From the IMG/VR virus record IMGVR_UViG_3300036861_000110, positions 1 to 41,871 of that record: a DNA stretch of 41,871 bases; one strand, 5' to 3'. This stretch comes from a virus. Shown piece by piece: positions 3,165-36,130 of this stretch. The translations under genes were made by a program, and so were the position numbers. Numbering within the stretch: the stretch's first letter is position 1; the number at the start of each line of letters is the position of its first letter. The notes under the pieces are model-generated. The model made no database searches and was not told the origin of the DNA. It saw only the letters and a program-made list of their open reading frames with translations.

Positions 3165-3374
3165 CTATGCGATCGCCGTCGACTTCCAGACGCCGGCGTC
3201 GTTGGCCCAGAGCTTCCCGTTGCCGACGATCGTCGCCCCCGACCGGCCGCCGGCCGGCACGACCGCCCCGATATGCCGCGGTGCCCCGACGAGCTTCGCG
3301 AGCCGCTCGACCTCAGCCTCAAGCGCCCGAAGACGCGACTCTGGATCCTTGCCGTGCTTTCGGATTCGCGGCAT
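3165..3374 (-). CDS. 69-aa coiled-coil tail-region protein
   Basis: The protein starts MPRIRKHGKDPESRLRALEA at 3374, giving a one-base TGATG overlap with the stop of the minor tail gene; a longer reading in the same frame upstream is only the shadow of that gene. Residues 12-32 form a coiled coil (ESRLRALEAEVERLAKLVG), followed by a Gly/Val-rich beta part ending KLWANDAGVWKSTAIA. Small trimerising proteins of this kind are common among minor tail genes. It is probably a tail-tip or fibre accessory component. Confidence 0.65.
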   Translation of the reverse strand: MPRIRKHGKDPESRLRALEAEVERLAKLVGAPRHIGAVVPAGGRSGATIVGNGKLWANDAGVWKSTAIA

Positions 3375-4567
3375 CAGCTCACCCTCCGGTCGAACGTGAG
3401 AACCATCCTCTCGGTACCCTGCTGCGGGACATTCACCGTGATCCCCGAGCAGTGAAAGGTTCCCGAGATCTCGGCGTAGCCATCGTTTAGACGCAAAGTC
3501 GGCTCGTCTCCCGGATGGATCACTCCGACCGGCACGTCGAGCCCGGTCGCGAAGACGGTCAGTTGGGGGATCTCGAGCCCGTTCCGCCGGTTGACTAGCT
3601 CCTGATCGGCGAGGGACTGCAGGAGCGCGGAGCTCGAGACGTCGTCCTCGGAGATCTCCTCTTCCATGAGCCCGTATGCGACAGCCGTGCCGGCGTCGCT
3701 GGCCGTGGCGATGAGCTTGTGACTGCCGTCGCCGGCGCCGAGCGCCGAGACGTTGGATGCGATCGCGAAAGCGTCGATCGTGAAGCCATAGTCGGAGACG
3801 TTCTTCCCCGTCTCGAGGATAAAGTCGACCGGCCCGCCGCGCCGCGGGTAGTACGCGATCCACCGCAGAAGCGGATCGACCTCGAAGTCGAAGCCATCGT
3901 CTCCGCCGGCGAGCTGCTGAAGGATCCCGGCGATCTTCCCCCGCTCCGAGCCCAGGTAGGTGATGGTCCGGAGGATGGTCGAGAGCGGGACGGTCTGCCG
4001 GGCGATCCCGAGATCTCCGCTCGTCTTCGCCTGCGTGTACGCGATCAATTCCCACGCTATGTCGAGCTGATCCTGATTGACGAAGACCCGGTCAGACGTG
4101 ACCGAGCGCCGCGCCAGCGCCGAGAACCAGCTCGCTCCGCCGAACCGGACGACCTTCTCCCCCGAGCTCGTGACCGCGGTCCACAGATACCCGCCCCAGA
4201 CCGGGTCGGGAGCGTCGTCCCGGTAGATCCGGATGATCCGCTGGCCCGGCTCGAGGATCTCCCGCGTGCATTTCGGGTCGTACTTCGGGAGCTCGAAACC
4301 GATCGGGCCGGCATCGTTCCCAACCTCGCCCCAACTCAGATTCTTCACCGGGATCTCGGCCAGGAGCTCGTCGTCGCTCCGCCGGTAGACCTCGATCCGG
4401 TAGAAGCCAGCGGGCGGAACCCAGACCGGTTGCTCGAGGGAAGGCGCCTTGGAATCGGAGAGATCAACGCCCTCCCACGTGACGGAAAGCGAGTCCCACG
4501 TGACCTGTTGGGAGTCCCATGTGACAGTCGGCAGCGGGAGCGTCTCCCCCGGAAACCCTACGGGCAA
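3374..4567 (-). CDS. Minor tail protein, siphovirus Gp37-like
   Basis: A 397-aa tail-tip protein. It opens with a three-fold heptapeptide repeat (VTWDSQQ, VTWDSLS, VTWEGVD; residues 15-35), then a beta-rich domain with AGFYRIEVYRRSDDELLAE and the patterns PGQRIIRIYRDD and PVWGGYLW, characteristic of siphophage tail proteins of the ReqiPepy6 Gp37 type (a Tal/gp27-hub relative). The C-terminal part carries further beta repeats and ends with NVPQQGTERMVLTFDRRVS. It lies between the tail spike and the lysis genes and would form the baseplate hub or the base of the receptor-binding apparatus. Confidence 0.8.
   Translation of the reverse strand: MPVGFPGETLPLPTVTWDSQQVTWDSLSVTWEGVDLSDSKAPSLEQPVWVPPAGFYRIEVYRRSDDELLAEIPVKNLSWGEVGNDAGPIGFELPKYDPKCTREILEPGQRIIRIYRDDAPDPVWGGYLWTAVTSSGEKVVRFGGASWFSALARRSVTSDRVFVNQDQLDIAWELIAYTQAKTSGDLGIARQTVPLSTILRTITYLGSERGKIAGILQQLAGGDDGFDFEVDPLLRWIAYYPRRGGPVDFILETGKNVSDYGFTIDAFAIASNVSALGAGDGSHKLIATASDAGTAVAYGLMEEEISEDDVSSSALLQSLADQELVNRRNGLEIPQLTVFATGLDVPVGVIHPGDEPTLRLNDGYAEISGTFHCSGITVNVPQQGTERMVLTFDRRVS
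4473..4525 (-). repeat. Three 21-bp direct repeats in minor tail gene
   Basis: TCCCA[C/T]GTGAC recurs at 4473, 4494 and 4515, exactly 21 bases apart, encoding the three VTW(D/E) heptapeptides near the N-terminus of the minor tail protein. The copies have diverged elsewhere, so this is an old tandem duplication rather than an assembly artefact. It may serve as a docking or oligomerisation segment. Confidence 0.85.
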
Positions 4568-4580
4568 CGTCGGCCTCCGA

Positions 4581-6365
4581 TCACGGCACTAGAGCGGCAT
4601 ACGCATTCCACGTGCCCGGCGTTGCACCGGCGACGCAACGATAGGCCGGTGCGTCCCCTCCGACGGCGTCGTCGATGTAGATGTCCATTCCCTGAGCCCA
4701 ATAGCCCTCGACCGGCGTCGGCAAGGCTTTAGTTCGGTGGGCAAACGACACTTCCCTGCCATAGAAGACCTTGTTGGAGTTGGCCGCGAAGATCCGGTTG
4801 TGATTGTCCTCGGCGAAGGTCCCCAGGACTACCCTGACGTTCGCCGTGTCAAAGACCGCGTGATTGCTGATATTGAGCAGCTTCTTCACCGAGATCGGCT
4901 GAGTGTGGGCGGCCGGCGTAGTCCCGTGAGCGCCCCGTGCCACGGTCCACGTCTTACCTGCGCCCACGCCCCCTGGTGCAGCGGTCACGCTGACTTGCTC
5001 GTTGTCGAACCAACCAGCACCGAACGGAACGGCGGCTCCCATATCTACAAGAGCAGTCCCTACGAAGCTCGGGGTAGCGTTGTCCACACTCGTCGTCAGC
5101 GTGAAGATGTTCACTCCTCTGGCCTGGTCACCGCCGGCCGAGGCACTCTCGCCGAGAGAGACATATCCGCTGCCGCTGCCGCCACGAAAGTAGTAATCGA
5201 CGTAGGTGCCGCCGTCGAGGAAACTATCGAGGGCGCGATCGTGTCGAATGACCCCGCCTTTGAGAACCGCCGTCCCCGCTAGGTTGTTGCCACTCGGCGG
5301 CCCGCCGTCCATGTTCATGATTTTGAAGCCGTAATAGGGGCCGACCGTGGCTTCTTTCCCGTAGGTGTCGATGAGATAGTCGGTGACGCGGAAGTTGAAC
5401 CCGCAGTTGTCGACGACAATGGCGTCGCGTTGAACGTGATCGACGTGAAGCGCCATCCACACCCAGCCGCCAGAAGTGTACAGATGGAACCCCTTACCGC
5501 CCGATGCCTTCACATCGATCATCACGCCGTCGGTAAGTTCAGTGTCCTCGAAGTCCACCGCGTACTGATAGCCGAGGGTCGCATTGTTGCCGCAGCCCAG
5601 CACGCGAGAGTGCAGGAACCGGGAGCCGACTCGGTTGGCCGGCGCGTTCGAGTTGTCGGCTCTCTTATCGGGATTCCAGTGTCCCCGTCCGGTGAAGCCG
5701 TCAATAAAGCAGAACTGCACCGTCCCCCGGTCAGGGAAATAGGTGAGCCCATTGAGCGCCTCGCCCACCCCCAATGGGCCAGCCGTGCCGAACCCCTGCA
5801 TATGCAGCCCGGTCACACCGAACCCGCGATCAGGCACGCTTGAGCCGCCGGCGCCATCGTAATAAGAATCTGTCTCAAACAGCCCCGCCCGGCCTGCGTT
5901 GTGACCCGATGGCTTCGCCCACGTGGAATGAGGGAAGAAAACGCAGCCCTTCGGCGACGGCGAATAGGCAGCGATCGGCCCGGCGTAGTGCCGGTTGTCT
6001 CCGAGAAGCCTGATCGTGGTCGTCAATCCGACCGTCCCGCCGCCCGGCCAGTGAAGAGTCCCGCCTTCCTTCGCGTCGTCCGCGGCGAACTGCATCGTCG
6101 ACCGGTTCGTCTCGGCACCGATCCCGGTAACGTCGGTCCCGAAGTAGAGCGAGCCGTAGTCGTCGGCCGAACGATGCCGGCGTCGGACCCGCCGCTCGAC
6201 CGCAGTCGCGTCCGTCTCCTGATTCGGGATTCCGAGAACGTCCTCGAGTGCCCGAACCGCGACCTGCAACTGCGTAACGAGCTCAGCAGATTGTGCCCTG
6301 GCGGCGCCGATCGCGTCGGTAGGGATAGGCGCGACGAAGTCGTCTTTCGTGCTCGGGTAGGCCAT
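4581..6365 (-). CDS. Tail spike, probable beta-helix receptor-binding protein
   Basis: This 594-aa protein starts MAYPSTKDDFVAPIPTDAIG at 6365, just after the stop of the upstream tail gene. Residues 1-60 form a helical N-terminal tail-attachment segment (AARAQSAELVTQLQVAVRAL). From about residue 90 the sequence has the short, Gly/Asn/Asp-rich alternating strands of a right-handed parallel beta-helix (for example DGVMIDVKASGGKGFHLYTS and DAIVVDNCGFNF), as in pectate-lyase-like spikes that bind or cut surface glycans. The C-terminal 150 residues look like a separate beta domain and end EGYWAQGMDIYIDDAVGGDA, a sequence style seen in trimeric spike ends. No catalytic residues can be assigned by eye. 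Confidence 0.8.
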   Translation of the reverse strand: MAYPSTKDDFVAPIPTDAIGAARAQSAELVTQLQVAVRALEDVLGIPNQETDATAVERRVRRRHRSADDYGSLYFGTDVTGIGAETNRSTMQFAADDAKEGGTLHWPGGGTVGLTTTIRLLGDNRHYAGPIAAYSPSPKGCVFFPHSTWAKPSGHNAGRAGLFETDSYYDGAGGSSVPDRGFGVTGLHMQGFGTAGPLGVGEALNGLTYFPDRGTVQFCFIDGFTGRGHWNPDKRADNSNAPANRVGSRFLHSRVLGCGNNATLGYQYAVDFEDTELTDGVMIDVKASGGKGFHLYTSGGWVWMALHVDHVQRDAIVVDNCGFNFRVTDYLIDTYGKEATVGPYYGFKIMNMDGGPPSGNNLAGTAVLKGGVIRHDRALDSFLDGGTYVDYYFRGGSGSGYVSLGESASAGGDQARGVNIFTLTTSVDNATPSFVGTALVDMGAAVPFGAGWFDNEQVSVTAAPGGVGAGKTWTVARGAHGTTPAAHTQPISVKKLLNISNHAVFDTANVRVVLGTFAEDNHNRIFAANSNKVFYGREVSFAHRTKALPTPVEGYWAQGMDIYIDDAVGGDAPAYRCVAGATPGTWNAYAALVP

Positions 6366-11811: not shown

Positions 11812-12132
11812 TTACTCGTTCTCGAGTCGCTGCGTCAGTTCGGCCGGCTGCCCGGCCCCTCGATCAGCCTTGCGCCCGCGGCCACGCCGGCGCGACTTCT
11901 TCGACGTCTCCCGGACCTCCGTCGGCATCGTGACCGACGCGGTCTGCGTGAAGTCCTCCGGATCCCCGCCGGCGGTCTTTGCTCCCGTCTTCGTGGCGAA
12001 GCGGCCGGCACCGGCCCTCACGAGCTGTCGAGCCTGGTCTGGATCCAGATCGACCTTGTCGCCGACCGAATGCTCGTCGCCCTCGGGATCCCGCCAGGGA
12101 TGCGAGAGAACGACCGTCACGTGCTCGCCCAT
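11812..12132 (-). CDS. 106-aa protein between connector and tail terminator
   Basis: The N-terminal 50 residues form a small beta domain (VVLSHPWRDPEGDEHSVGDK ... DPDQARQLVRAGAGRF), a pattern seen in short actinophage head-tail proteins that define a 'D..V.LD...A..LV.AG.' element. The rest is Thr/Ser-, then Lys/Arg-rich and likely disordered (KKSRRRGRGRKADRG). It starts after the HK97 gp10-like gene with a 12-base gap. Possibly a minor head-tail junction or decoration protein. Confidence 0.6.
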   Translation of the reverse strand: MGEHVTVVLSHPWRDPEGDEHSVGDKVDLDPDQARQLVRAGAGRFATKTGAKTAGGDPEDFTQTASVTMPTEVRETSKKSRRRGRGRKADRGAGQPAELTQRLENE

Positions 12133-12144
12133 CCTTCCTCCCTC

Positions 12145-12486
12145 CTATCGCGCGACTCTCAGGCCCCTAGCGTGAGCCTTCAGCCCGACGGAGATCGCGG
12201 CCTTCCGCAGCGGAGCGAACGCCGGCGTCGGCGCCGGCGGCCCGGTCCCGTATTCGATCCAGCGGCTCTTCCAGTCCGTCGCCCGGATCCGACCGGCAGC
12301 TCCGAACGGCGTTTGTACGACCAGGCCGACGATGCCGTTTATGTAGTCACCCTCGTCCCGCGGAGCTCGCCGCCTCGCATCCGCCGCACCCAGCCCGACG
12401 GCCTTCTGGATCGCGAGTCGGAGCGGCTTGCCCGCCCGGATCGTCTTCTCGATGGCCGGCCGGTAGCGGAATCTTGGCGCCGGCAC
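12145..12486 (-). CDS. Head-tail connector, HK97 gp10-like
   Basis: The 113-aa protein MPAPRFRYRPAIEKTIRAGK has an N-terminal helix and then the hallmark of HK97 gp10-like proteins: a strand-turn-strand with WIEYGTGPPAPTPAFAPLRK (Trp-x-Glu-Tyr-Gly-Thr and an aromatic-proline stretch toward the C-terminus). These proteins complete the neck and allow tail joining. The start ATG at 12486 lies one base after the stop of the 41-aa gene upstream. Confidence 0.82.
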   Translation of the reverse strand: MPAPRFRYRPAIEKTIRAGKPLRLAIQKAVGLGAADARRRAPRDEGDYINGIVGLVVQTPFGAAGRIRATDWKSRWIEYGTGPPAPTPAFAPLRKAAISVGLKAHARGLRVAR

Positions 12487-12487
12487 T

Positions 12488-12613
12488 TTAGGCGCCGGCG
12501 ATCAGAGAAGCAACGAACGCAGCGGTCTTATCCTTTACCGCTTGCTCGAACTTCCTGGACTCTTCCGCGTCAGGAAGATGCTTGTGACCATTCACCGAGA
12601 TCGTAAAGCTCAT
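12488..12613 (-). CDS. 41-aa protein in head-tail connector cluster
   Basis: Starts MSFTISVNGHKHLPDAEESR with ATG at 12613 and a Shine-Dalgarno AAAGGGGG about nine bases upstream, and ends AAFVASLIAGA at TAA 12488. The first strand plus helix (ESRKFEQAVKDKTAAFVASL) looks like a small alpha/beta microprotein. Very close packing between the 63-aa gene and the gp10-like gene supports it. Function unknown. Confidence 0.65.
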   Translation of the reverse strand: MSFTISVNGHKHLPDAEESRKFEQAVKDKTAAFVASLIAGA

Positions 12614-12636
12614 CCCAGATTCCCCCTTTCGGTTGT

Positions 12637-12828
12637 TTAGACCCGGACGCCGGCGAGTGAGTCCTTCACGAAAAGGAACGTCCCATCGGGAGCCGCGAAG
12701 CCGGAGAGCACCATCAGTCCGCCCTCGCCGATCTCGACCAGGACCGCGACACGGTGCCAGCCGACGCCGAGCTCGAGCTCTTCGCCGAAGTCCTCTACAT
12801 GCAGAAACCGGATCGGTAGATACGTCAT
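12637..12828 (-). CDS. 63-aa beta-rich connector-region protein
   Basis: MTYLPIRFLHVEDFGEELEL begins a small all-beta protein (HRVAVLVEIGEGGLMVLSGF, GTFLFVKDS). It overlaps the head-completion gene by four bases and stops at TAA 12637. No family recognised. Its position among connector genes suggests a minor head or neck protein. Confidence 0.6.
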   Translation of the reverse strand: MTYLPIRFLHVEDFGEELELGVGWHRVAVLVEIGEGGLMVLSGFAAPDGTFLFVKDSLAGVRV

Positions 12829-13178
12829 CCCGTCACCGCCCGAACCTTCGCTTCTAGATGATGCGGCCCTTCCCCCGGCCGCTCGAACGCAAGCGGCGGC
12901 CCCTCGAGCTCGTAGGAGATCCCCTCGATCGTGACCCGATCAGCGGCACCCAGCACCGGCAGGAGCCCATAACCGTTCGACCCGATCACCAGCAGGAAGC
13001 GTGAGATCACCGTCTCCCGGCCGGTCGTGAGCTCCTGGCCCTCAAGCGGCGAGAGCGAGCACGGCCATTCGCCGGCTTCCTGGATTTCACCGGGGATCGG
13101 GTTGTGGTACTCGTCCTCGACCGGCGCGCCACGTGTAAACGCGACCATCGTCTTCGAGAGCAGCGTCTCGAGACTCAT
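12825..13178 (-). CDS. Head completion/stopper-like protein
   Basis: The 117-aa sequence begins MSLETLLSKTMVAFTRGAPV and has the beta-barrel signature of head-tail stopper proteins: GEWPCSLSPLEGQELTTGRE then RFLLVIGSNGYGLLPVLGAADRV and a final YELEGPPLAFERPGEGPHHLE strand. Stoppers (SPP1 gp16, HK97 gp10 neighbours) close the portal channel until the tail is joined. It is flanked on both sides by four-base overlaps with neighbouring connector genes. Confidence 0.7.
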   Translation of the reverse strand: MSLETLLSKTMVAFTRGAPVEDEYHNPIPGEIQEAGEWPCSLSPLEGQELTTGRETVISRFLLVIGSNGYGLLPVLGAADRVTIEGISYELEGPPLAFERPGEGPHHLEAKVRAVTG

Positions 13179-13804
13179 ACCCGCATCGCCCAGCTATCGA
13201 TGATCGCGAGCTCATCGTCGTTCAGCTTGATCCCGCCGGCCGGCGAGCCGTGCGTCACGGAGTACGCCTGGCCGATCGACTCCTGCGCCTCCGCGGTCGG
13301 GTTCGACCAGGCCCTCGAGGCAGCGGACAGACAGACGCCCTTGATCGCTTCCGGAAGCAACTCGACGCCGAGCGGGTTCGGATTCGGGATCGCGTCCTGC
13401 GTGAGCGCGTAGCCGTGCGTGTATTTCACGCGAACGACGGAGCTCGTCCCTCCCCAGAAACCGGCGCCGTTCAGCGGCTCGACGAAGACCGGCCGGACGA
13501 GCTCGAGCTTCCCCAGAGCATCGACCGTCCACCGCGCAGCAGGCACCGGAACCGCCAACGAGCCCGGCGCGATGATCTCCACCAGCGAGACGGCGTAGAC
13601 CGGCCGCATCGGGAGCTGGATCTCGGCGCCCCACGTTCCCCGGAGCTTGACGTCGTCGTCGACCACGTAGGAAAACCACTGGCCGGCCCGGACCTCGATC
13701 GTCGCGGAGAGCAGCTCGAGGATCAGCTTCGCGCGGGCGGAGTCCTCCGGGATCTGCCGGCCCAGGTACTCGGCGAGATCGGCGACTTGCGCGAGCATCG
13801 TCAT
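13175..13804 (-). CDS. Head-tail adaptor (gp6/gp15-like)
   Basis: A 209-aa protein with an N-terminal helical pair (VADLAEYLGRQIPEDSARAK LILELLSATIEVRAG), then strands (VKLRGTWGAEIQLPMRPVYA) and an exposed loop, ending in helices EAIKGVCLSAASRAWSNP. That order is typical of the adaptor that plugs into the portal dodecamer, and the LPMRPVYAVSLVEI strand is the 'LP..PV.SV..V' element of the family. Start ATG at 13804 overlaps the upstream gene by four bases; an internal ATG two codons later is an alternative. Confidence 0.78.
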   Translation of the reverse strand: MTMLAQVADLAEYLGRQIPEDSARAKLILELLSATIEVRAGQWFSYVVDDDVKLRGTWGAEIQLPMRPVYAVSLVEIIAPGSLAVPVPAARWTVDALGKLELVRPVFVEPLNGAGFWGGTSSVVRVKYTHGYALTQDAIPNPNPLGVELLPEAIKGVCLSAASRAWSNPTAEAQESIGQAYSVTHGSPAGGIKLNDDELAIIDSWAMRV

Positions 13805-14118
13805 TCGACGATCACCTTCCCGGCCAGCTTGACCGGCCGCTCCGTATCACCAGCATTCCCGATCCGGATCCACGCCGCGTAGACCCCATCAGCCAGGATC
13901 AGCGTCGTGCCAGGACCGACCACGACGCGCGCGAAATAGTTTGGCCCGTCCGTCTCCCACGTGCCGGTCTTCCAGTCGCCCTCAACCGGCTCGGTATTCG
14001 GCCCGACGAAAGCGAGCTGCACCGGGAGTCCCGTCGGATTGACGACGGCGCCAGCTTCACGAGCTGCGACCGGGATCCGAACGTATTCCTTCGTCAGCGA
14101 CGAGATCCGGATCGTCAC
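13801..14118 (-). CDS. 105-aa structural protein of connector cluster
   Basis: An all-beta protein with VRIPVAAREAGAVVNPTGLP, an Asp/Trp-rich middle (EGDWKTGTWETDGPNYFARV) and a terminal IRIGNAGDTERPVKLAGKV. Immunoglobulin-like or head-fibre-like beta proteins with such features are common beside the adaptor gene in actinophages. It might be part of the head-tail joint or a decoration. No motif of known catalysis. Confidence 0.62.
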   Translation of the reverse strand: MTIRISSLTKEYVRIPVAAREAGAVVNPTGLPVQLAFVGPNTEPVEGDWKTGTWETDGPNYFARVVVGPGTTLILADGVYAAWIRIGNAGDTERPVKLAGKVIVE

Positions 14119-14130
14119 GGCCCCTCCCCT

Positions 14131-15138
14131 TTATCGAGCGATCGGTTCGCCCGTCTGCCATTTCTTCTCTAGCCGATCGCCGGCCCACTTATCCGTCGGA
14201 GCGTCGGCCTGCCACGGCCGCTCCGGCTCGCCGACTCTCCACTTCCCCGAAATCTCGACGAGCCACTTCAGCGCCACGCCCCCCACGAAGATCTCGAGGT
14301 TCGGAGCGGTCGCGAAAGCAACCGCGACGCCGATCGCGGACCCGGTCGCGACCTTCGTCACCTGGCCGGCGCCGACGGTCACGGCCACGCTCACCGCCGC
14401 AGCCAAGCTCGCCAGCCGAACCGCGCCTTCCCCGTTTACACGCGCAACGCCTACGGCCGCCCCGGAAGCCGGCTGAACGACGCCGGCGAGCGCCTGGCCG
14501 GCCGCGACGCCGATCCCACTCCCGGAGCCTGCCTGCAGCCGCGTACCGGCGGCAGCGCCGGCGGCGACGCCTATGGCCGAGCCCTGTCCCCCGGCCTTGA
14601 ACGAAGCCGTTGCTAAGGCCGACGCGACGGCCACCGCGGAGCCGGTCGCGACCTTCCACACTTCGCCTGAACCGGCTACCGCCGCGACGCCGATCGCAGA
14701 TCCCGAGCCGGCGACGCGCTTGGTCGCGTCACCGAGAGACCGCGCCACACCGATCGCTGCGCTCGTGCCGGCCTTCCGAACCGCTCCGGACGATGCCCCT
14801 ACGGCCACACCGGCGACTGCGGCGGCCCCTGCTAGGACCCGCGCCCCGGACGAGGCCGAAGCGGCAACCGCTACGGCTTGCCCCGCTCCGGCGAGCAGGA
14901 TCGCCCCAGACGCGCTCCCAGCGGCAACCGCGACGGCCGAGCCCGTCGCTTCGACGACGTTTCCTCCCGCCGATACGGGCGCCTGACCGACGAGGAAGCT
15001 CCCCTTCTTGCCCTCGTCGCCCTCGGCCGGCCACCAAACGTGTGACTCGGACGGGAGGTAAATCTTGGTCCCCGTCCCGGTAACGAGAATGAAGCGGCTA
15101 CCGATACCAGGGGCGGGATGAAATGGCTGCTGCGGCAC
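14131..15138 (-). CDS. Ala/Gly/Val-rich 20-residue repeat structural protein
   Basis: The 335-aa protein (GTG at 15138) has a beta N-domain (RFILVTGTGTKIYLPSESHV ... GSFLVGQAP, residues 1-55), then about eleven imperfect 20-residue repeats, residues 58-275, with consensus K/L-x-A-G-S-G-S-A-I-G-V-A-x-A-x-A-x-G-x-x. The C-terminal 60 residues carry evenly spaced Trp (VALKWLVEISGKWRVGEPER, KWAGDRLEKKWQTG). The regular small-residue repeats suggest a beta-solenoid or a long packed helix bundle, as in phage fibres or whiskers. It sits between connector genes and capsid-side genes, so a head fibre or neck whisker is my best inference; I do not know a named family. Confidence 0.75.
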   Translation of the reverse strand: MPQQPFHPAPGIGSRFILVTGTGTKIYLPSESHVWWPAEGDEGKKGSFLVGQAPVSAGGNVVEATGSAVAVAAGSASGAILLAGAGQAVAVAASASSGARVLAGAAAVAGVAVGASSGAVRKAGTSAAIGVARSLGDATKRVAGSGSAIGVAAVAGSGEVWKVATGSAVAVASALATASFKAGGQGSAIGVAAGAAAGTRLQAGSGSGIGVAAGQALAGVVQPASGAAVGVARVNGEGAVRLASLAAAVSVAVTVGAGQVTKVATGSAIGVAVAFATAPNLEIFVGGVALKWLVEISGKWRVGEPERPWQADAPTDKWAGDRLEKKWQTGEPIAR

Positions 15139-15142
15139 GCCC

Positions 15143-15583
15143 TTACTCTTCCCAGACGGCCCAGACTTGCAGCACCGAGCCGGCGCCGCCGCCGTAGTTC
15201 CACAAGATGACCGAGCTCGAGATTGGGATGATCAACCCCCGACGAGCGGCCCACCATGACCAAACGATGCCAGCGCCGATCTGCGCGGCGGTCCCGAACC
15301 GACGGAGATAGATCGTGCCGATCGTCGGCGCCGATGACCAGGCCGTGCCAATGACCGCCGTCGCGGCCGTGTCAGCAGGATCTTCCGGCTGGCCCGCGGT
15401 CGTCGTCGTGGCCGTTCCCACCGTGGCCGGCCGGATCAGTCCGATCGCAGACGCCGTCGCCGCGTTGCAAACCGCGCCGATCTCCCGGATCTCTGCTCGA
15501 GCTCCTGCGGCCGTGCGAATGTCGCAATACGCTGCGCCAGCAGCCGCAGCCGGCGTTGCGACAGCCACTTCATACAGCGCCAT
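15143..15583 (-). CDS. 146-aa capsid-side structural protein
   Basis: MALYEVAVATPAAAAGAAYC opens an all-beta protein whose pattern AYCDIRTAAGARAEIREIGAV ... GTIYLRRFGTAAQIGAGIVW ... WNYGGGAGSVLQVWAVWEE resembles short phage structural proteins predicted as jelly-roll head decorations. The N-terminal Ala-rich stretch may be flexible. It lies between the Gp80-like protein and the repeat protein. Stop TAA at 15143. Confidence 0.65.
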   Translation of the reverse strand: MALYEVAVATPAAAAGAAYCDIRTAAGARAEIREIGAVCNAATASAIGLIRPATVGTATTTTAGQPEDPADTAATAVIGTAWSSAPTIGTIYLRRFGTAAQIGAGIVWSWWAARRGLIIPISSSVILWNYGGGAGSVLQVWAVWEE

Positions 15584-15594
15584 CCCGGCTCCCC

Positions 15595-16125
15595 CTAGTC
15601 GAACTGGACAGTCAACGTGCCGGCTCGAAAGACGAACTGGTCGCTCGAGTTGATCGTCTTCGCCACGCTGAGTGCTCCGTAGATCACGCCGTTTCCAGCC
15701 GTGACCGCGTCAGCGAGGAAGAAGTCGGTGATCGTCCCCCAACCGGCGCTCGCTATCGGATAAAGCACGTCGGACGTGTTCGCGCACGTCCCGGTCCCGT
15801 CCGGAGCGTTGAACGCAATCGCCTGCCGCGCGTAGGCTCCACCGGAGACTTCGGTCCACGTCTGCGCCTCGCTATTGCTTGTCGCGGTTAGCAGCCCACC
15901 GTAGATCGTGGTGATCGGCGCGAAGTTGGTATTTCGCAAGACCTCGTTCAGCAGCGCGTTCTCGAGGTAGTTCGTCATCGATACGCCGGTCGCCGCGCCT
16001 CGGATGATCGGGACGCGATGCCCGTCGAAGATCGCAACGCCGTCGACCTCGACCCAATCGTGCGCCCGAGCGCGGATCCGGCGGATCCGGACATGCGCCT
16101 CGCCCTCGATCAACCGGCCCCTCAT
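15595..16125 (-). CDS. Gp80-like structural protein with N-terminal extension
   Basis: From residue 50 (MTNYLENALLNEVLRNTNFA) to the end this matches the style of phage Gp80-type structural proteins: a terminal helix, then TTIYGGLLTATSNSE, TEVSGGAYARQAIAF and WGTITDFFLADAVTAG with the final GTLTVQFD. The ATG at 16125 overlaps the preceding stop by four bases and adds about 49 residues (MRGRLIEGEAHVRIRRIRAR...) that may be a genuine extra domain; the internal ATG at 15978 gives the canonical 127-aa form. Likely part of the virion; in many phages it lies near tail fibre or head genes. Confidence 0.72.
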   Translation of the reverse strand: MRGRLIEGEAHVRIRRIRARAHDWVEVDGVAIFDGHRVPIIRGAATGVSMTNYLENALLNEVLRNTNFAPITTIYGGLLTATSNSEAQTWTEVSGGAYARQAIAFNAPDGTGTCANTSDVLYPIASAGWGTITDFFLADAVTAGNGVIYGALSVAKTINSSDQFVFRAGTLTVQFD

Positions 16126-17304: not shown

Positions 17305-18261
17305 CTAGGAGTTCAGCACTCCGCGGAGACGGGAAGCCGCCTTGCCGCCGAACATGCCCAAGCCGATGAACGCCTCGATCCGGGTGCGAAAGACCGGCTT
17401 CGCCTGCTGCTCGCCCAGATCCCGGACGTCAATCGGCTGAGCTGGATCGCCGTTGAACAGGCCCATGACTCCGCCCGTCTCCGGCGAGTCGCCGAAGTGG
17501 ACCGCGTAGATCGAGCTACAGATGGACGAGGCTCCCTGCGTCTCGGTCTGCGGGATGATGAGCGTCCCGTCGGCCTTGGTCCCAATGTCGAGCAGCGGGA
17601 TCCCGTTGTAGCGATCGATCTGGCGACCGAACTCTTCGACGGTCATCGTCCATGCCCCGAGCCGGCGGGCGGAGCTCTTGATCTTCTGCCGGATCATCGA
17701 GTTCATGTAGAGAGCGTCGACCCCACCGACCACGGCCGCGATCGCGGCGTCGAGCACGTCAAAGAACGCGTGCCGCGCGTTGTCATCGGCCCCGATCACC
17801 GGCAGCCCGTTCGTCGCTGCATCGATGATCTGCGCGCCAGTGATTCGCTTCTTCAGACCGTCGAAGCTATTCGCGTCGACGGCCGTGTCGCCGTTGATAA
17901 ACGTGTCTTGGAACTTGTAGACGGCAGCCTTCACCTTGAGCTTCGTCTGGACCGCCCGCTGGTCGTTCAGGTTCCCCCTGGTCTGGGCGATGAACCTGTC
18001 CACGTCAGCATCCCCACCAAGGATCACCAGCGACTCGGTCTTCTGCACGACGGTCCCGGTCGATTCCGTGTATGCCGAGTTCACGGCCCGGAACTCGATC
18101 CCCGGAAGCGTCGCTTCCTCGTTGTATGCGAACGCGTTCCCCTGAATCGGCTCGAGCGGGATGCGATCGAGCACGGTGCTCTCGATCACGAACGTCTCGT
18201 TCACTCCCTGCTGCAAGTCGTTCTCGGAGAGCAGCGCCGACTGAACCAGCGTCACGGCCAT
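17305..18261 (-). CDS. Major capsid protein, HK97 fold
   Basis: The 318-aa protein starts MAVTLVQSALLSENDLQQGV at 18261, preceded by GGGAGAA; a longer in-frame reading upstream is out of register with the scaffold gene and not used. Its body has the order of HK97-type shells: N-arm, E-loop, spine helix and P-domain (VIESTVLDRIPLEPIQGNAF, TEFRAVNSAYTEST-like strand, DRFIAQTRGNLNDQ helix, DALYMNSMIRQKIKSSAR, and a C-terminal RTRIEAFIGLGMFGGKAA). Length, position directly behind the scaffold and its hairpin-bounded gene support it. It self-assembles into the icosahedral head. Confidence 0.93.
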   Translation of the reverse strand: MAVTLVQSALLSENDLQQGVNETFVIESTVLDRIPLEPIQGNAFAYNEEATLPGIEFRAVNSAYTESTGTVVQKTESLVILGGDADVDRFIAQTRGNLNDQRAVQTKLKVKAAVYKFQDTFINGDTAVDANSFDGLKKRITGAQIIDAATNGLPVIGADDNARHAFFDVLDAAIAAVVGGVDALYMNSMIRQKIKSSARRLGAWTMTVEEFGRQIDRYNGIPLLDIGTKADGTLIIPQTETQGASSICSSIYAVHFGDSPETGGVMGLFNGDPAQPIDVRDLGEQQAKPVFRTRIEAFIGLGMFGGKAASRLRGVLNS

Positions 18262-18310
18262 TCGGACTTCTCCCTTCCTCCAAGCCCGCCGGCCATGACC
18301 GAACGGGCGC

Positions 18311-18922
18311 CTACTTCTTCGCGTTCTCCGCGTAACCCCGAGCCATCCGCTGCTGCGGCGTGAGCTTCTCGTCGGCCCCGCCGTCGCCCTTGCGAGCTCC
18401 GCCGTCCGCGGATCCGCTCGGCTTCTTCGGTCCCTTGTCCGGTGCGAGGTACGGCTTCGCCTCGAGCAGCTTGTCGATCGCGGCGTCGATCTTCTTCCGA
18501 TCGACCTCGCCGTCGTCACCGACCGCAAAGTCGTCCAGATCCAGGAGACGGACCGCGTCCTCGGGATCGGCCAGCTTCGTACCGGCTCGAGCCCGAACCT
18601 CAGACGCAACGACGCGCGACGCCCAAGCCTCGCGCTCTTCCTTCCGCGCCGTGTCGCCGGCTTCCCGGATCTTCTTGTCGCTTTCGCCTTCGCTCGCTTG
18701 CTTGAGCTTCTCGAGCTCGTCCCGCGCAGCCTTCGCCTCGCGCTCGGCCTTCGCACGAGCCTTCCGCTCTTCCTCGAGAGCCCGCTTGCCTCCCTCGCCG
18801 AGCTCGGCGTCGCTCTTCTTCTTCGCCTCTTCGTCTTCCCGACGCTTCGCCTCTTCGTCCTCGCGACGCTTGGCCTCGTCGGCTTCCTTCTGCTTCTGGA
18901 TCTCTTCCTGCGACTGAGCCAT
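18311..18922 (-). CDS. Scaffolding protein
   Basis: A 203-aa, very charged helical protein (residues 1-110 nearly all Lys/Arg/Glu/Ala) located directly before the major capsid gene, the standard place for a scaffold. Two tandem octapeptides RREDEEAK (residues 19-34) come from duplicated DNA. The C-terminal part, KPYLAPDKGPKKPSGSADGG then EKLTPQQRMARGYAENAKK, is the usual basic capsid-binding helix at the end of scaffolds. It guides procapsid assembly and then leaves or is cleaved; no protease is visible next to it. Confidence 0.88.
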   Translation of the reverse strand: MAQSQEEIQKQKEADEAKRREDEEAKRREDEEAKKKSDAELGEGGKRALEEERKARAKAEREAKAARDELEKLKQASEGESDKKIREAGDTARKEEREAWASRVVASEVRARAGTKLADPEDAVRLLDLDDFAVGDDGEVDRKKIDAAIDKLLEAKPYLAPDKGPKKPSGSADGGARKGDGGADEKLTPQQRMARGYAENAKK

Positions 18923-28832: not shown

Positions 28833-29212
28833 CGGCTACCGTTGCGGATCGCTCGGATCGCGATCCCGTCGAGTGCCCGGCCCGTCTGCCGCCAGTTGTT
28901 CCGCGCGATCTCCTCGAGTTCGAGGCCGGCGGAAAGCTGTACCCGGATCGACTGGACCGTCCAGCCGTCCCAGAGCAGCGAGACGATCGCCTGCAGCCGA
29001 CGAAGGTCGGCGGCAGAGTAAAGACGCGGGATCCCCGGCGTGCCCCTCGTCGTCTGGATGGACGGCCGCGCGAGCCCAATCCGATCCCAATACCGGAGTT
29101 GCCGCGGCGTCGCCCCGGACCACTGGCAGGCTCGGGTCGCCGTGTATTGCCTCCGCTCATGTAGCTCGAAAGGCTCGGTGTGACCGGCTCTCAGCCGCTC
29201 AAGATTCGCCAT
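28829..29212 (-). CDS. MerR-type winged-helix regulator
   Basis: The 127-aa protein starts MANLERLRAGHTEPFELHER. YTATRACQWSGATPRQLRYW DRIGL is the MerR helix-turn-helix with its 'R..R.W...GL' wing (residues 23-47), followed by PRLYSAADLRRLQAIVSLL, another helix. There is no metal-binding Cys set at the end. Phage MerR-like proteins act as excisionases or early regulators. It overlaps the replication initiator-like gene by 14 bases. Confidence 0.85.
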   Translation of the reverse strand: MANLERLRAGHTEPFELHERRQYTATRACQWSGATPRQLRYWDRIGLARPSIQTTRGTPGIPRLYSAADLRRLQAIVSLLWDGWTVQSIRVQLSAGLELEEIARNNWRQTGRALDGIAIRAIRNGSR

Positions 29213-30311
29213 CGATCGCCCCCTTTTCCGGCCCGATTCCGGGCAGATCTTCGGTCGATTCCTGGCCCGTTTTCCCCGGATCCTCCCCACCTGTGGACAC
29301 TTCCCGGACCAGCTCTTCGAGCCAGGCCCGCGGCTTCTGGACGGCTGAAACGTCACGCATTCGAGCTCGCATCAGCGCCTCCGGAACGATGTAGGGGCCG
29401 AGTTCCCGCCACTGGTCGAATGACGGCGGCCAGACGTCGAGGAAGAGCTTGTTCTCGACGCAAAGTGCCTGGTAGTTGTGCCTTTCGTCCGAGCTCAGGA
29501 CCGCAGAGAATCGCGACGCGACCATGCTCGCGACGTGGTCTTGCCAGGAGATTTCCGAATCGTCGGGTTTCCCCCCGGACCCCCCTTCGAGAGCAACCCG
29601 ACGGTCGGAATCGGGAAGAGCAAGATCTAGATCTTGTTCGTGCTCTTCTCTGATCTGCTCTGATCTACTCTGCTCTAGAGTCTGATCCGGATTAGGTCGG
29701 CGACTTAGATCGCGGATTAGATTGGGATCAGATCGAGCCGGCGGTCGCCGAAGGTCCATCCCGGCCTCGTCCGGCGTCCGAGCGCCCTTGCGCGAGTTGC
29801 AGCCGCGGCACGCGACGACGATGTTCTCGAGCGTGTTCTCCCCGAACGGCTCGACATGATCGTAAGTTCCGCCAGCCACTCCGCGCCGATCTGACCAGTC
29901 GACTTTCCGCCCGCAATAGCGACAGCGATCGCCGTCACGTACTCGGATGGCCTTCACGAGATCGACGTTCCGATGCAGCGCCATCTTCCGAGCCCCCATA
30001 GCCCGGCCGTACTCGAGCCGATCTGTATCGAGTCGAACGGCTTCCTGCCACCGCTCCCAGCGTGTGACCTGATAGCCGGCGCCGTTTGCAGCCCAGAGTT
30101 CGACCTCGACGAGACGGCGAGCCGCGAGGGTCTTCGCCTTCGCAGTCGGCGGGAACGGGAAGAGCGCGATCGCAGCCGCCGGCACGCGTCCGGCCGTATC
30201 GTGCTGGCCGGCATAGCCGAGGCCCTCGAGGAAGAGCACCGCGGCGTCCTGGCCGGCTGCGAGGATCTTCGGGTCGGTCCACCAGCGCGAAGCGAGCCGG
30301 ATCCAGTCCAT
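29199..30311 (-). CDS. Replication initiator-like protein with inserted HNH domain
   Basis: The 370-aa protein starts MDWIRLASRWWTDPKILAAG and its first 110 residues resemble the winged-helix N-domain of phage replisome organisers (FLEGLGYAGQHDTAGRVPAA, then ARRLVEVELW). Residues 118-185 are a full HNH nuclease module: C130-x2-C133, YDHVEPFG (Asp151-His152), N163 and CRGCNSRKGARTP (C168, C171, N172). A low-complexity linker (residues 186-250) is encoded by candidate origin DNA. The C-terminal 110 residues include ERHNYQALCVENKLFLDVWPP and WLEELVREV. Fusion of an initiator-like domain with HNH is unusual. Confidence 0.72.
   Translation of the reverse strand: MDWIRLASRWWTDPKILAAGQDAAVLFLEGLGYAGQHDTAGRVPAAAIALFPFPPTAKAKTLAARRLVEVELWAANGAGYQVTRWERWQEAVRLDTDRLEYGRAMGARKMALHRNVDLVKAIRVRDGDRCRYCGRKVDWSDRRGVAGGTYDHVEPFGENTLENIVVACRGCNSRKGARTPDEAGMDLRRPPARSDPNLIRDLSRRPNPDQTLEQSRSEQIREEHEQDLDLALPDSDRRVALEGGSGGKPDDSEISWQDHVASMVASRFSAVLSSDERHNYQALCVENKLFLDVWPPSFDQWRELGPYIVPEALMRARMRDVSAVQKPRAWLEELVREVSTGGEDPGKTGQESTEDLPGIGPEKGAIDGES
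29621..29740. other. Candidate phage replication origin inside initiator gene
   Basis: A perfect 16-base palindrome CAAGATCTAGATCTTG (29621-29636) is followed by TCTGATC at 29649, 29659 and 29681, a variant TCTGCTC at 29669 (10-base spacing for the first three), and GGATTAG at 29689 and 29714. The stretch is visibly richer in A and T than its surroundings. Iterons within the coding region of the initiator, as in lambda O, are a known origin design. In the protein it encodes a flexible, low-complexity linker, so DNA function rather than protein constraint would explain it. Confidence 0.55.
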
Positions 30312-32086
30312 CAGCTCGCCCCCTGCGAGATCTGGGAGCCCTCCGGCCCGCGCGTGACCAGGATCCGGTCGGCGAAAGCATCGGCGAGCTCCTGTAGGTG
30401 AGTGACCAGGACGATCGCGTCGAACTCGTTCCGGAGCGAGCCCAGGAGATCCACGGCTCGCTGCAGATGCGAATGATCGAGCGATGTGAAGCCCTCGTCG
30501 ATGTAGAGACTTCGCATCGGCCGGCCGGCCCGGCGCGCGAGGATCCTCGACAGTCCGACCCGGAGCGCCAGGTCGACGCAGAAGCGCTCTCCGCCAGACA
30601 GATTGCCGATCGGCCGCTCGGAGACGTCGTCGGAGACGAGGATCTCGAGCGTCTCCCGGACCCCGCCAGTCTTCAGCGCGCGTTGAGACGCGATCGTCAC
30701 CTGCAGCCGCTCCATGACGCCGGAGAGGATCCGGTTCGCCTCAGCCTCGAGTTCAGGGATAGCCGTCTCGATCAGCAGCGCCGGGATCCCGTTCGGCCCG
30801 AAAGCGTCGGCCAGGAGCTCGAGGATCCCGCGGAGCTCGCCGAGTTCGGTGGACTTCTGCATGATCCCGTCGAGCTGCTCGAGGATCTGGACCGCAGCCA
30901 TGACCCGCTCGTTTACACGCGCAAGATTGGCCTCCGCATCCCGCAGCGCCCGGCCGGCCGCCGTGATCGTGCCGGCGACTTCGCGCTCATGAGCCTCGAG
31001 CCCGCGGAGTTCACCCTCCACACCGGCGCCGGCTTGTAGCCGAGCCGCCAACTGTTCTTCGTGCTTTGACGGCGTCTTGAGCGCCTCCACTTCACGGAGA
31101 GCCTCAGCGACTTCTATGGCCTTCTCTTCGAGCCGCGCCTCGAGCGTGCGGATCTCCTGCTCGAGCACGTCGCGACACTCCGGAACGTCATCGATCTGGC
31201 GACGGCGGTTATCAATGAGCGTCTGCGTCCGCTTCCAGTCCCGCTGCGCGCCCTCGGAGTTGACGAGGATCTGCCGGCCGGTTTCCTTTCGCTTGGCACT
31301 TTCCTCGGCGAGCTCCGCGCGTACGCCCGCGAGCTCCTGCGCCTGGTCGTGAAGCTCCGCCCGCCGAGCTCGGATCTGCTCCGACTCGGACTCGAGCGCT
31401 TCGAGCCGACCGATCTCACGATCACGGATAGCCTCGAACGTCTGCAGATCGGCCGATGGATCCCCCAGCGCCTCGAGCCTTCGCTCGAGATCGACCTTGA
31501 GACTCTGCGCGCCGGCAAGTTGACCTGAGATCTCGCGTTGCCGTCCGCGAGCCACGTCGCACCAGGCTTGGTAGCGCTCAAGATCCAGGACGGACGCGAG
31601 AACGGCCTTCCGCTCGCCCGGACGAAGCTCGGAGAATCGATCGGCGTCGCCTTGCCCGATCCAGGACGTCGCGGCCCACGTCTCGAAGTCCAGCCCGAGC
31701 AGCTCCCGGATCGCCGTTTCCGTCTCGTCGATGCGCGATCCACCGGCCGGCTGCCAGCCGAAGCCGTCATAGTCGTTCATATCGACGTCCAGCCGCACAG
31801 AGCTCTTGCCCCGGCCGCCGAGCTCACGGACTCGCTGGACCCGGTAGTTCGTGCCGTCCATCGTGAAGTCGAAGACGACGATGCAGCGATCGCCAGATGC
31901 GTTGACGAAGTCATCAGGAGAACGGCCGCGGCCGGCACCGAAGAGCGCCCACGGAATCGCCTCGACGAGAGACGTCTTGCCGGCGCCGTTCTCCCCGACG
32001 ATGGCGATCGCTCCATCGGTGAACGCGATCTCGGTCCGCTGCTGCCAGGATAGGAAGCCCTCGAGCTCGAGGCGGCGAGGGATCAT
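30311..32086 (-). CDS. sbcC: SbcC-like SMC-type ATPase (short)
   Basis: From ATG 32086 (MIPRRLELEGFLSWQQRTEI) the 591-aa protein has Walker A GENGAGKTSL (31-40), a long coiled coil (about 150-430), then the ABC signature NLSGGERFCVDLALRVGL and Walker B YIDEGFTSLD, ending with a D-loop/H-loop ALVTH-type IVLVTHLQELADAFADRI. This is the ATPase of an SbcCD/Mre11-Rad50 nuclease, which opens hairpin or blocked DNA ends. The usual hook CxxC is not visible in the coiled coil; only a lone Cys in DVPECRDVLEQE appears near the middle, so the apex may dimerise differently. Its partner nuclease is at 34970-36130. Confidence 0.9.
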   Translation of the reverse strand: MIPRRLELEGFLSWQQRTEIAFTDGAIAIVGENGAGKTSLVEAIPWALFGAGRGRSPDDFVNASGDRCIVVFDFTMDGTNYRVQRVRELGGRGKSSVRLDVDMNDYDGFGWQPAGGSRIDETETAIRELLGLDFETWAATSWIGQGDADRFSELRPGERKAVLASVLDLERYQAWCDVARGRQREISGQLAGAQSLKVDLERRLEALGDPSADLQTFEAIRDREIGRLEALESESEQIRARRAELHDQAQELAGVRAELAEESAKRKETGRQILVNSEGAQRDWKRTQTLIDNRRRQIDDVPECRDVLEQEIRTLEARLEEKAIEVAEALREVEALKTPSKHEEQLAARLQAGAGVEGELRGLEAHEREVAGTITAAGRALRDAEANLARVNERVMAAVQILEQLDGIMQKSTELGELRGILELLADAFGPNGIPALLIETAIPELEAEANRILSGVMERLQVTIASQRALKTGGVRETLEILVSDDVSERPIGNLSGGERFCVDLALRVGLSRILARRAGRPMRSLYIDEGFTSLDHSHLQRAVDLLGSLRNEFDAIVLVTHLQELADAFADRILVTRGPEGSQISQGAS

Positions 32087-32250
32087 CGCGCGCCTCGTTC
32101 GGCTGCGCGGAGATCCGAGAGAGCCTTCTGGCCGCATGGCCGGCAGAAGACGCCGTGCGAAGAGTTCCTCGTGTTGAATAGCTCGACGACGGCGGCCTTG
32201 ACGTGGCAGCGCTGGCATCGGCGGGAGAGATCGCGAAGGTAGGCCGGCAT
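32083..32250 (-). CDS. 55-aa zinc protein before sbcC
   Basis: MPAYLRDLSRRCQRCHVKAA carries C12-x2-C15, and CRPCGQKALSDLRAAERGAR provides C39-x2-C42, forming a small zinc ribbon with VVELFNTRNSSHGVF between. It overlaps sbcC by four bases (ATGA) and the membrane protein by one base. The short beta ribbon is probably regulatory or DNA-binding. Confidence 0.72.
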   Translation of the reverse strand: MPAYLRDLSRRCQRCHVKAAVVELFNTRNSSHGVFCRPCGQKALSDLRAAERGAR

Positions 32251-34329: not shown

Positions 34330-34973
34330 CCGTACCGCCCGCAATACGGCCAGCCGCCCGGCGACCAGTAGTCCCCGCCGAGCTTCGCGGTCCATGCCTG
34401 CGCCGTGGCGATCTGCTCGGTCGGCGTCGCCTGGTACGCGAACGCCGCATAGCGCCCACCGCCGGCAGAGATCCACGTCGACGGCGAGAATTGCAGCCCG
34501 CCGTCGAATGTCCCGTTGATCGTCCAGTCGGCCGTATACGGCGGCTGCCCGTCGTGGTCGCCCGACTCGCAATCGGCGATCGCCAACCAGTTGATCGAGC
34601 CCGAATGAGATTGCGTCGAGGATCCAGCGAAAGCCGGCGCCGGCGTCGCTCGAGCAGCCCGGAGCTCGGCCAGCCAGCGTGCGTGACGAAGGCGCCGCAG
34701 CCAGCGCTCGTGAGCCTCTCGCCGAAGCGCGTAGAAGGCCCTGGAAGCCCGGAGACGGATTCCTGCGTCCCAGACGGCCTCCTGGCCGTGGACGGCCGCC
34801 AGCGTGGCAGTGGCGCTCGGCGTGGCCCGTTTCTGCGGCCTCTGGCCGGAGCAGAGCGCCAGCCCGAGAACGCAGACGGCCAGGACCCCGACGGCGATCC
34901 TCGAGAGCCGTCTCACTGTCCGGAGCTCCGCTGCGAGCTGGTCTTCGAGCCCTGGATCGTCGAAGCGCCTCAT
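34326..34973 (-). CDS. Membrane-anchored Rpf-like muralytic protein
   Basis: A 215-aa protein with an N-terminal membrane anchor at about residues 26-43 (IAVGVLAVCVLGLALC), an Arg-rich stalk, and from residue 127 a resuscitation-promoting-factor domain: INWLAIADCESGD with the catalytic Glu136, GTFDGGLQFSPSTWISAGGG, then AYQATPTEQIATAQAWTAKL and a final GWPYCGRYG. Cys135 and Cys211 would form the family disulfide. Rpf folds like lysozyme and cleaves the glycan backbone; it is typical of actinobacteria. Its place in an early recombination region, not with the endolysin, is odd. It starts four bases into the SbcD stop. Confidence 0.88.
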   Translation of the reverse strand: MRRFDDPGLEDQLAAELRTVRRLSRIAVGVLAVCVLGLALCSGQRPQKRATPSATATLAAVHGQEAVWDAGIRLRASRAFYALRREAHERWLRRLRHARWLAELRAARATPAPAFAGSSTQSHSGSINWLAIADCESGDHDGQPPYTADWTINGTFDGGLQFSPSTWISAGGGRYAAFAYQATPTEQIATAQAWTAKLGGDYWSPGGWPYCGRYG

Positions 34974-36130
34974 TTCGGCCCCCTTCCGCCCATGAGATCG
35001 CCGGCGAGCTCTTCGAGACGCGGATGCATCGCCGGCGGGATCCGGTCACCCTGCTCGGCGATCCAGAGCCGCAGAGCGGCCAGCGGATCCGTTGCCTCGG
35101 CGATGGCCTCTACTCGTGGCCGCCTCGAGCGCTGGACGTCGAGCTCGAGGAGCACGTGATCAGCGCCGGCTTCCAGAAGTGAGCCGCGGAGCTTCACGTT
35201 CACGGCCTCGGCGATCTCCTGCGTCACCAGGCCGCGGATCCGGACGATGGCGCCGGCGACGTCCTCGATGGCCGGATCTGCGCCCTCCTCGAGCTGGATC
35301 GTCACCAGCCGGCGCGCCGGCGTCGCGTGAAACATGACCTTGTCGTAATCAGAGCCGAGGATGACCTCGAGAGCGCCCTTGTCCTGGCCCTCATCGCCGA
35401 AGTCGAAGCGATCGATCCCGCCCGAGTACCAAGCGAGTGCACTTTGATTCAGACGTGGAGCGACGACGATCGGCTGCGCTCGGTGAAGATGGCCGGCTGC
35501 GACGTAGCGAAAACCCTCGAGATCCGCGGGCGAGAGCATCGGCTCACCAATGATGGAGACGTCTCGCTCAGTCCCGAGAACACTGCCCGCAATCGGCCAG
35601 TGAAGCGTCAGGACGTCGGCGTCGGCGTCTGCGCGTAAACGATCGAGAACGCGGCGCAAGAGATCGATCTGGCGCTCTCCGACGTTCTCGTTCTCGGCCA
35701 GGACGCCGGCGAGATTCGCCTTCGATGCCCACGGCAGCGCGGCGATCCGGATCCCGGCGACCTCGACGACCTCCGGACGAGTCAGCGCGTAAACGTACGG
35801 CCGGTCCTCGAGCGCGTCGAGAATGGAGAGCCTCCCGGCGGCCATCGGCCCGTCGTGATTGCCCGCCAGGAGCACGAGCGGGATCCGGGCGAGCTTCAGA
35901 GCCCGGATCTGCCGGGAGAAGAGCGCTAGCGTGGCGGCGTCCGGGTTCCGCGTGTCGAACGCGTCGCCAGCGACAAGAACGAACTCGCAGCCGTTATCGA
36001 GCGCCCAGCCGACGGCATAGGCCCAGCAGCGCGCAGCCGAGTCCACCGCGGAGTTGATCCCGGTCCGTGGATCCACGCGGCCGTGCGTTTGTCGGCCGGC
36101 GTGAAGATCGGCTGCGTGAAGGAACTTCAT
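34970..36130 (-). CDS. sbcD: SbcD-like nuclease (Mre11 family)
   Basis: The 386-aa protein starts MKFLHAADLHAGRQTHGRVD. All five metallophosphoesterase motifs are visible: DLHAG (Asp8, His10), AGDAFD (Asp56), GNHDG (Asn91-His92-Asp93), TLHWPI and GHLHR near residue 212. These bind two Mn ions for exo- and endonuclease action with SbcC. The cap region and a C-terminal helical part (RSRRPRVEAIAEATDPLAAL) follow. It overlaps both its neighbours by four bases. The partner SbcC lies about 3 kb downstream, after nine intervening genes. Confidence 0.93.
   Translation of the reverse strand: MKFLHAADLHAGRQTHGRVDPRTGINSAVDSAARCWAYAVGWALDNGCEFVLVAGDAFDTRNPDAATLALFSRQIRALKLARIPLVLLAGNHDGPMAAGRLSILDALEDRPYVYALTRPEVVEVAGIRIAALPWASKANLAGVLAENENVGERQIDLLRRVLDRLRADADADVLTLHWPIAGSVLGTERDVSIIGEPMLSPADLEGFRYVAAGHLHRAQPIVVAPRLNQSALAWYSGGIDRFDFGDEGQDKGALEVILGSDYDKVMFHATPARRLVTIQLEEGADPAIEDVAGAIVRIRGLVTQEIAEAVNVKLRGSLLEAGADHVLLELDVQRSRRPRVEAIAEATDPLAALRLWIAEQGDRIPPAMHPRLEELAGDLMGGRGPK

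Follow-up and report, generated by a model that had tools for sequence, protein, structure and literature searches.

A gene in a 41,871-base IMG/VR virus record, the whole of which we call the window, probably encodes the rope of a bead-on-rope neck fiber of the GP4 fiber I kind, here in a long-tailed phage. In podophage GP4, Zheng and colleagues reportedly described fiber I in 2023 as five dimers of gp80 that an elongated rope protein joins together. The window carries features of this system, namely a gp80-family bead gene and a repeat protein encoded in the gp80 operon. Our model suggests that copies of the gp80-like protein, which is dimeric in its GP4 relative, would be strung along 20-residue repeats, and that bead number, and hence fiber length, would be determined by how many repeats there are. 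The Trp-spaced tail or the N-domain of the rope would then anchor it at the neck or bear the tip.

The candidate rope is a 335-aa ORF on the minus strand (14131-15138) with a GTG start, an N-domain (residues 1-57), an array of 20-residue repeats and a Trp-spaced C-terminal tail. Over residues 58-281, the identity is 0.377 at a lag of 20 residues (z=8.8) and 0.342 at a lag of 40 (z=6.9), values reached in 0/1000 shuffles each, and no other lag between 5 and 59 was comparable. In the best register, the array contains ten units (residues 66-265; 14344-14943, minus strand) with a mean pairwise identity of 37% and the consensus G-S-A-[VI]-[GA]-V-A. The first-pass annotation, made from the sequence and giving no strand, had counted eleven imperfect 20-residue repeats between residues 58 and 275 or so; this is the same array, resolved here into ten full units and a degenerate flanking unit. 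The Trp-spaced C-terminus that it described was also recovered, as a tail (residues 292-335; 14134-14265, minus strand) with five Trp at residues 292, 300, 309, 318 and 327, that is, one every 8-9 residues.

The repeats are rich in Ala, Gly and Val (GC 66.6%), and such a strong bias could in principle generate periodicity by chance in GC-rich, low-complexity coding sequence. We rejected this explanation, which we regard as extremely improbable, on the basis of the shuffle tests at lags 20 and 40, of the codon-position signal and of the recognition of the window by a profile derived from sequences of other genomes (see below). At a lag of 60 nucleotides, DNA identity was 0.58 and 0.52 at codon positions 1 and 2, compared with 0.47 and 0.31 at other lags, and was barely raised at codon position 3 (0.38 versus 0.32). 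No 60-bp DNA tandem repeat was found under the array. Given this absence and the weak third-codon signal, the repetition is held at the protein level.

The genes of the region run on the minus strand in the order TerL, portal, protease, scaffold, major capsid, gp80-like, 146-aa protein, repeat protein, 105-aa protein, Ad1 and, after it, Hc1, tail terminator, tape measure, distal tail protein and endolysin. This set of genes is that of a phage with a long tail; among the window proteins scanned, a subset of the ORFs, we saw no sheath protein. The gp80-like bead protein (15595-15978, minus strand) has 127 aa when read from the ATG that aligns with its homologues, the longest ORF starting at 16125. 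Spacing in the operon is tight, with 11 nt between gp80 and the 146-aa gene (15143-15583, minus strand) and 4 nt between the latter and the rope. The 146-aa protein, a candidate tip or accessory part, had no match in Pfam, PHROG or NCBIfam, none in a direct IMG/VR search, and one distant phage relative (31% identity). The earlier placement of the repeat gene beside head-tail connector genes was correct: directly downstream are the 105-aa gene (13801-14118, minus strand), the head-tail adaptor Ad1 (13175-13804, minus strand; phrog_442, E 1e-24) and the head closure gene Hc1 (12825-13178, minus strand; phrog_501, E 1e-6). The adaptor, used as a query, found no relatives. The major capsid ORF (17305-18756, minus strand) matches phrog_212 (E 6e-83) from residue 166. 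Because this ORF overlaps the scaffold ORF and the family match begins only at about residue 166, the true capsid start is probably internal to it.

The identity of the bead rests on three matches of the gp80-like protein: PF23140 ('Podophage GP4 fiber I protein gp80'; E 1.2e-36, above cutoff), phrog_240 ('head protein'; E 6e-23) and PDB chain 8jou_a (E 3e-7). The entry 8jou, 'Fiber I and fiber-tail-adaptor of phage GP4', contains gp80 in 10 chains, which fit five dimers. Like fiber I of the Ralstonia podophage GP4, the window thus has a gp80 homologue, encoded here in the operon of the rope. Unlike GP4, it carries a tape-measure gene and other long-tail genes, its repeats are of Ala/Gly/Val, and the 146-aa gene parts bead and rope. 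Searches for gp80-like proteins in phage records gave hundreds of matches, mostly annotated as hypothetical or head protein; the counts from one of these searches, which used a consensus-like query from alignment A2 that corresponds to no natural protein, are only a rough guide. A repeat-protein partner would give a function to many unnamed genes.

The window rope itself had no homologue in direct sequence searches and no match in Pfam, PHROG or NCBIfam. In other phages, repeat proteins with 20 residues as the best lag (shuffle p <=0.01) lie directly 3' of gp80: BcepMigl gp57, DC1 gp54, IL02 gp56, POI1126 gp16, PBC5 orf12, MEP401 gp59 and the proteins of ct2t, DSL-LC06 and C72C1. Venkman gp51 and a ctXG protein have the same best lag at the same threshold and are located farther from gp80. 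Near gp80, the best lag was 22 in JC1 gp54 and 36 in CRP-4, and the periodicity of the genes near gp80 in Itty13 and Atu_ph08 was not significant.

Our survey covered gp80 homologues and their surroundings in 80 viral loci and in 40 loci from bacterial genomes. The lag was 20 in 104 of 129 periodic ORFs in these loci, some of which are antisense shadows. Where at least 4.5 kb of sequence lay downstream, 38 of 41 viral loci had a lag-20 ORF, and 25 of the 54 viral lag-20 ORFs start within 14 nt of gp80 (often 3-14 nt). All 54 of these viral proteins have a Trp-spaced tail, with 222 of 230 spacings being exactly 10, compared with 8, 9, 9 and 9 in the window. This pairing of bead and putative rope genes recurs in dozens of viruses that are otherwise unlike one another. 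Some gp80 genes lie outside this pattern. We looked at phiCbK-like phages because they have a head filament, whose protein was reported in 2012 as not identified; their gp80 neighbors were without 20-residue repeats, and among the genes examined neither phiCbK-like Karma nor mycobacteriophage Hocus had a 20-residue-repeat neighbor. In Karma, the gp80 homologue (4962-5354 of that locus) is near the capsid gene. The first 50 kb of Slicko01 contained neither gp80 nor strong repeats.

As a control, we fetched 36 relatives with the capsid protein of the window. None of them had gp80 at E 1e-3, and two (L151 and L154) had a 20-residue-repeat protein, of other repeat types as judged by reading the matches; since the gp80 and capsid sets differ in taxonomy, this control is a contrast and no matched test. 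The L154 protein (11836-13407) has repeats of the AVESDTATAIGHATSKAL type and is positioned after a phrog_26662 protein, which might be an analogous bead, and before a BppU_N-like gene. The BppU_N-like domain occupies the slot that corresponds to the 105-aa protein of the window, a likeness by position only.

We then scored the window against a profile of 20 positions that drew on 381 units from 54 viral ropes, the window being left out. Its score was reached by 0/1000 composition shuffles and by 9/1000 period-preserving permutations, the latter being the fairer figure. This gives moderate support for the window fitting an Ala/Ser/Thr-type repeat profile beyond period and composition. The closest-looking repeats (GSATGVAQVTGAARANRGGS) belong to a locus of an Azospirillum MAG, 16 nt after gp80. 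Bcep22-type proteins have the 20-residue period yet do not fit the profile, so conservation is stronger for the period than for the residues themselves.

Variation in repeat number among relatives, which had been named as a check on the original proposal, was found, in steps of 20 residues. In the class of proteins starting with MFG, the start lies 99-359 residues from the Trp tail, and in 14 of 17 measured cases this distance leaves a remainder of 0 or 19 when divided by 20. In alignment A3, relatives differ by the presence or absence of whole blocks, each about 20 columns wide, and six Trp were counted in 31 of 46 tails measured across all classes. Arrays therefore change mostly by whole repeats, with the tail usually constant in its number of Trp. 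We tentatively raise the possibility of a molecular ruler, in which a single gp80 monomer docks on each repeat, a dimer thus taking two, and the gain or loss of whole repeats sets the number of beads and the length of a neck fiber widespread in short- and long-tailed phages. Binding between gp80 and rope, and a ratio of one repeat per monomer, are assumed in this scheme. With that ratio, the 10-11 repeats of the window would accommodate roughly ten gp80 monomers, as many as there are gp80 chains in 8jou, an agreement that is only suggestive. One end of the rope would be anchored at the neck, and our assignments of the attached end and of a role in host contact are equally provisional. If the ruler reading is true, this fiber system has so far been without such a name in the protein-family libraries. 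The link between bead and rope also offers a simple test: does the number of repeats set fiber length?

A plain flexible tether would account for the array differently, with repeats acting as a spacer that does not bind beads and an adhesin, for example the 146-aa protein, carried on the gp80 structure. Repeats do occur beside large domains at some loci, such as Laminin_G_3 in L141 and an 892-aa protein in L024. Furthermore, in the siphophage LSH1, gp35 is placed between the anchor gp36 and the payload gp34 (PMC13243795). A plain spacer, however, need not hold exactly 20 residues or change its length by whole units, and we consider the tether improbable. In L024 and L025, the repeats, of about 20 residues, lie inside the 892-aa protein (3254-5929), directly upstream of gp80, which suggests a rope built into a larger protein.

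LSH1, an Alishewanella siphophage with a GP4-fibril-like dimer, gp35, is among the closest known systems. Its authors matched gp35 to the GP4 fibril chain 8JOU_g, described in the same 2026 paper as a dimeric fibril protein joining an adhesin to the tail collar (PMC13243795). For the protein beside gp35, they could not model the C-terminal part and suspected that it might contain a repetitive motif (PMC13243795). The bead-rope link may explain such regions, which that study could not model.

For structure prediction, we used a natural in-frame gp80-rope read-through found at locus L083, its stop codon translated as Ser, as a modeling device only. AlphaFold gave a pLDDT of 47 with 8 sequences; with 92 sequences, the gp80 part reached about 93. 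The rope repeats remained at about 46-60, with two short strands per 20 residues, and were not confidently docked on gp80. In a Foldseek search, the gp80 part hit 8jou as well as chains from the necks of Bas63 (9mt4) and Sf14 (9c39), with no significant fold match outside this part. The beta-solenoid that the first-pass annotation had in mind is therefore without support from this model of a related rope, whose low confidence over the repeats speaks neither for nor against a solenoid. By sequence, no rope chain was found in the PDB, that of GP4 included.

These models bear on a further alternative, a self-standing head or neck fiber (a beta-solenoid or trimeric beta-fiber with attachment domains at both ends), gp80 being a separate decoration. 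The alternation of hydrophobic and small residues in the repeats, the two predicted strands per unit and the connector genes next door all agree with such a fiber. It gives no reason for the linkage to gp80 in unrelated genomes, and neither the pLDDT over the repeats nor the lack of a fold match beyond gp80 favors it. Consequently, we think it unlikely, with somewhat more in its favor than the flexible tether. The original suggestion of a head fiber or neck whisker holds as regards location, with the gene lying between capsid and connector genes, two genes from a gp80 homologue whose fold is also found in the Sf14 neck whiskers and the Bas63 connector. As regards a fiber standing by itself, it is better replaced by a rope carrying separate gp80 beads. 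The window protein is thus probably something more specific than first proposed, the rope of a GP4-type fiber and a variant of a known system.

Experimental structures provide a precedent for the proposed rope. Dimers with the gp80 fold occur in the neck whiskers of Sf14, a Shigella phage (gp30/gp31; 9c39), and in the connector of Bas63 (9mt4). Each Sf14 whisker has dimers of gp30 and of gp31, and a single chain of gp30 runs through both whiskers; the threading protein is the product of the gene adjoining the gp80-fold gene. A threading partner for gp80-fold dimers has thus been seen experimentally at a phage neck. A close Sf17 homologue of Sf14 gp31 belongs to phrog_240, like the gp80 of the window, with PF23140 just below cutoff. 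Unlike the window rope, the homologue of the Sf14-type threading protein has 166 aa and, on reading, no obvious 20-residue repeats.

The Bcep22-type proteins (BcepIL02 gp56, DC1 gp54 and BcepMigl gp57; phrog_19041) share with the window rope the 20-residue period and follow gp80 directly. Of the ropes, these are the nearest to GP4; their repeats differ in residues from the Ala/Ser/Thr type and contain few Lys or Arg, and their C-terminal tail has no Trp ladder. BcepIL02 gp56, which occupies the rope position, carries a virion-associated annotation, and for BcepMigl gp57 the matching PHROG bears the name virion structural protein. In JC1 virions, mass spectrometry detected gp53 (gp80), and gp54, in the rope position, is not among the listed proteins examined; phiM5 virions give a similar picture. 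The neck of the Anabaena myophage A-1(L) bears five bead-chain-like fibers (gp82-gp81-gp80). In contrast to our reading of the window, those beads connect head to tail and no rope is described; its gp80 shares the number only.

Elsewhere in the window, genes for SbcC-like and SbcD-like nuclease subunits are located at 30311-32218 and 34970-36130 (minus strand), with a peptidase-like gene and others between them. A 370-aa ORF (29199-30311, minus strand) has a replication-initiation-like match at its N-terminus and matches an HNH endonuclease in its central part, and perhaps carries an HNH insertion. Short imperfect tandem repeats of 5-15 bases are clustered at 29641-29735.
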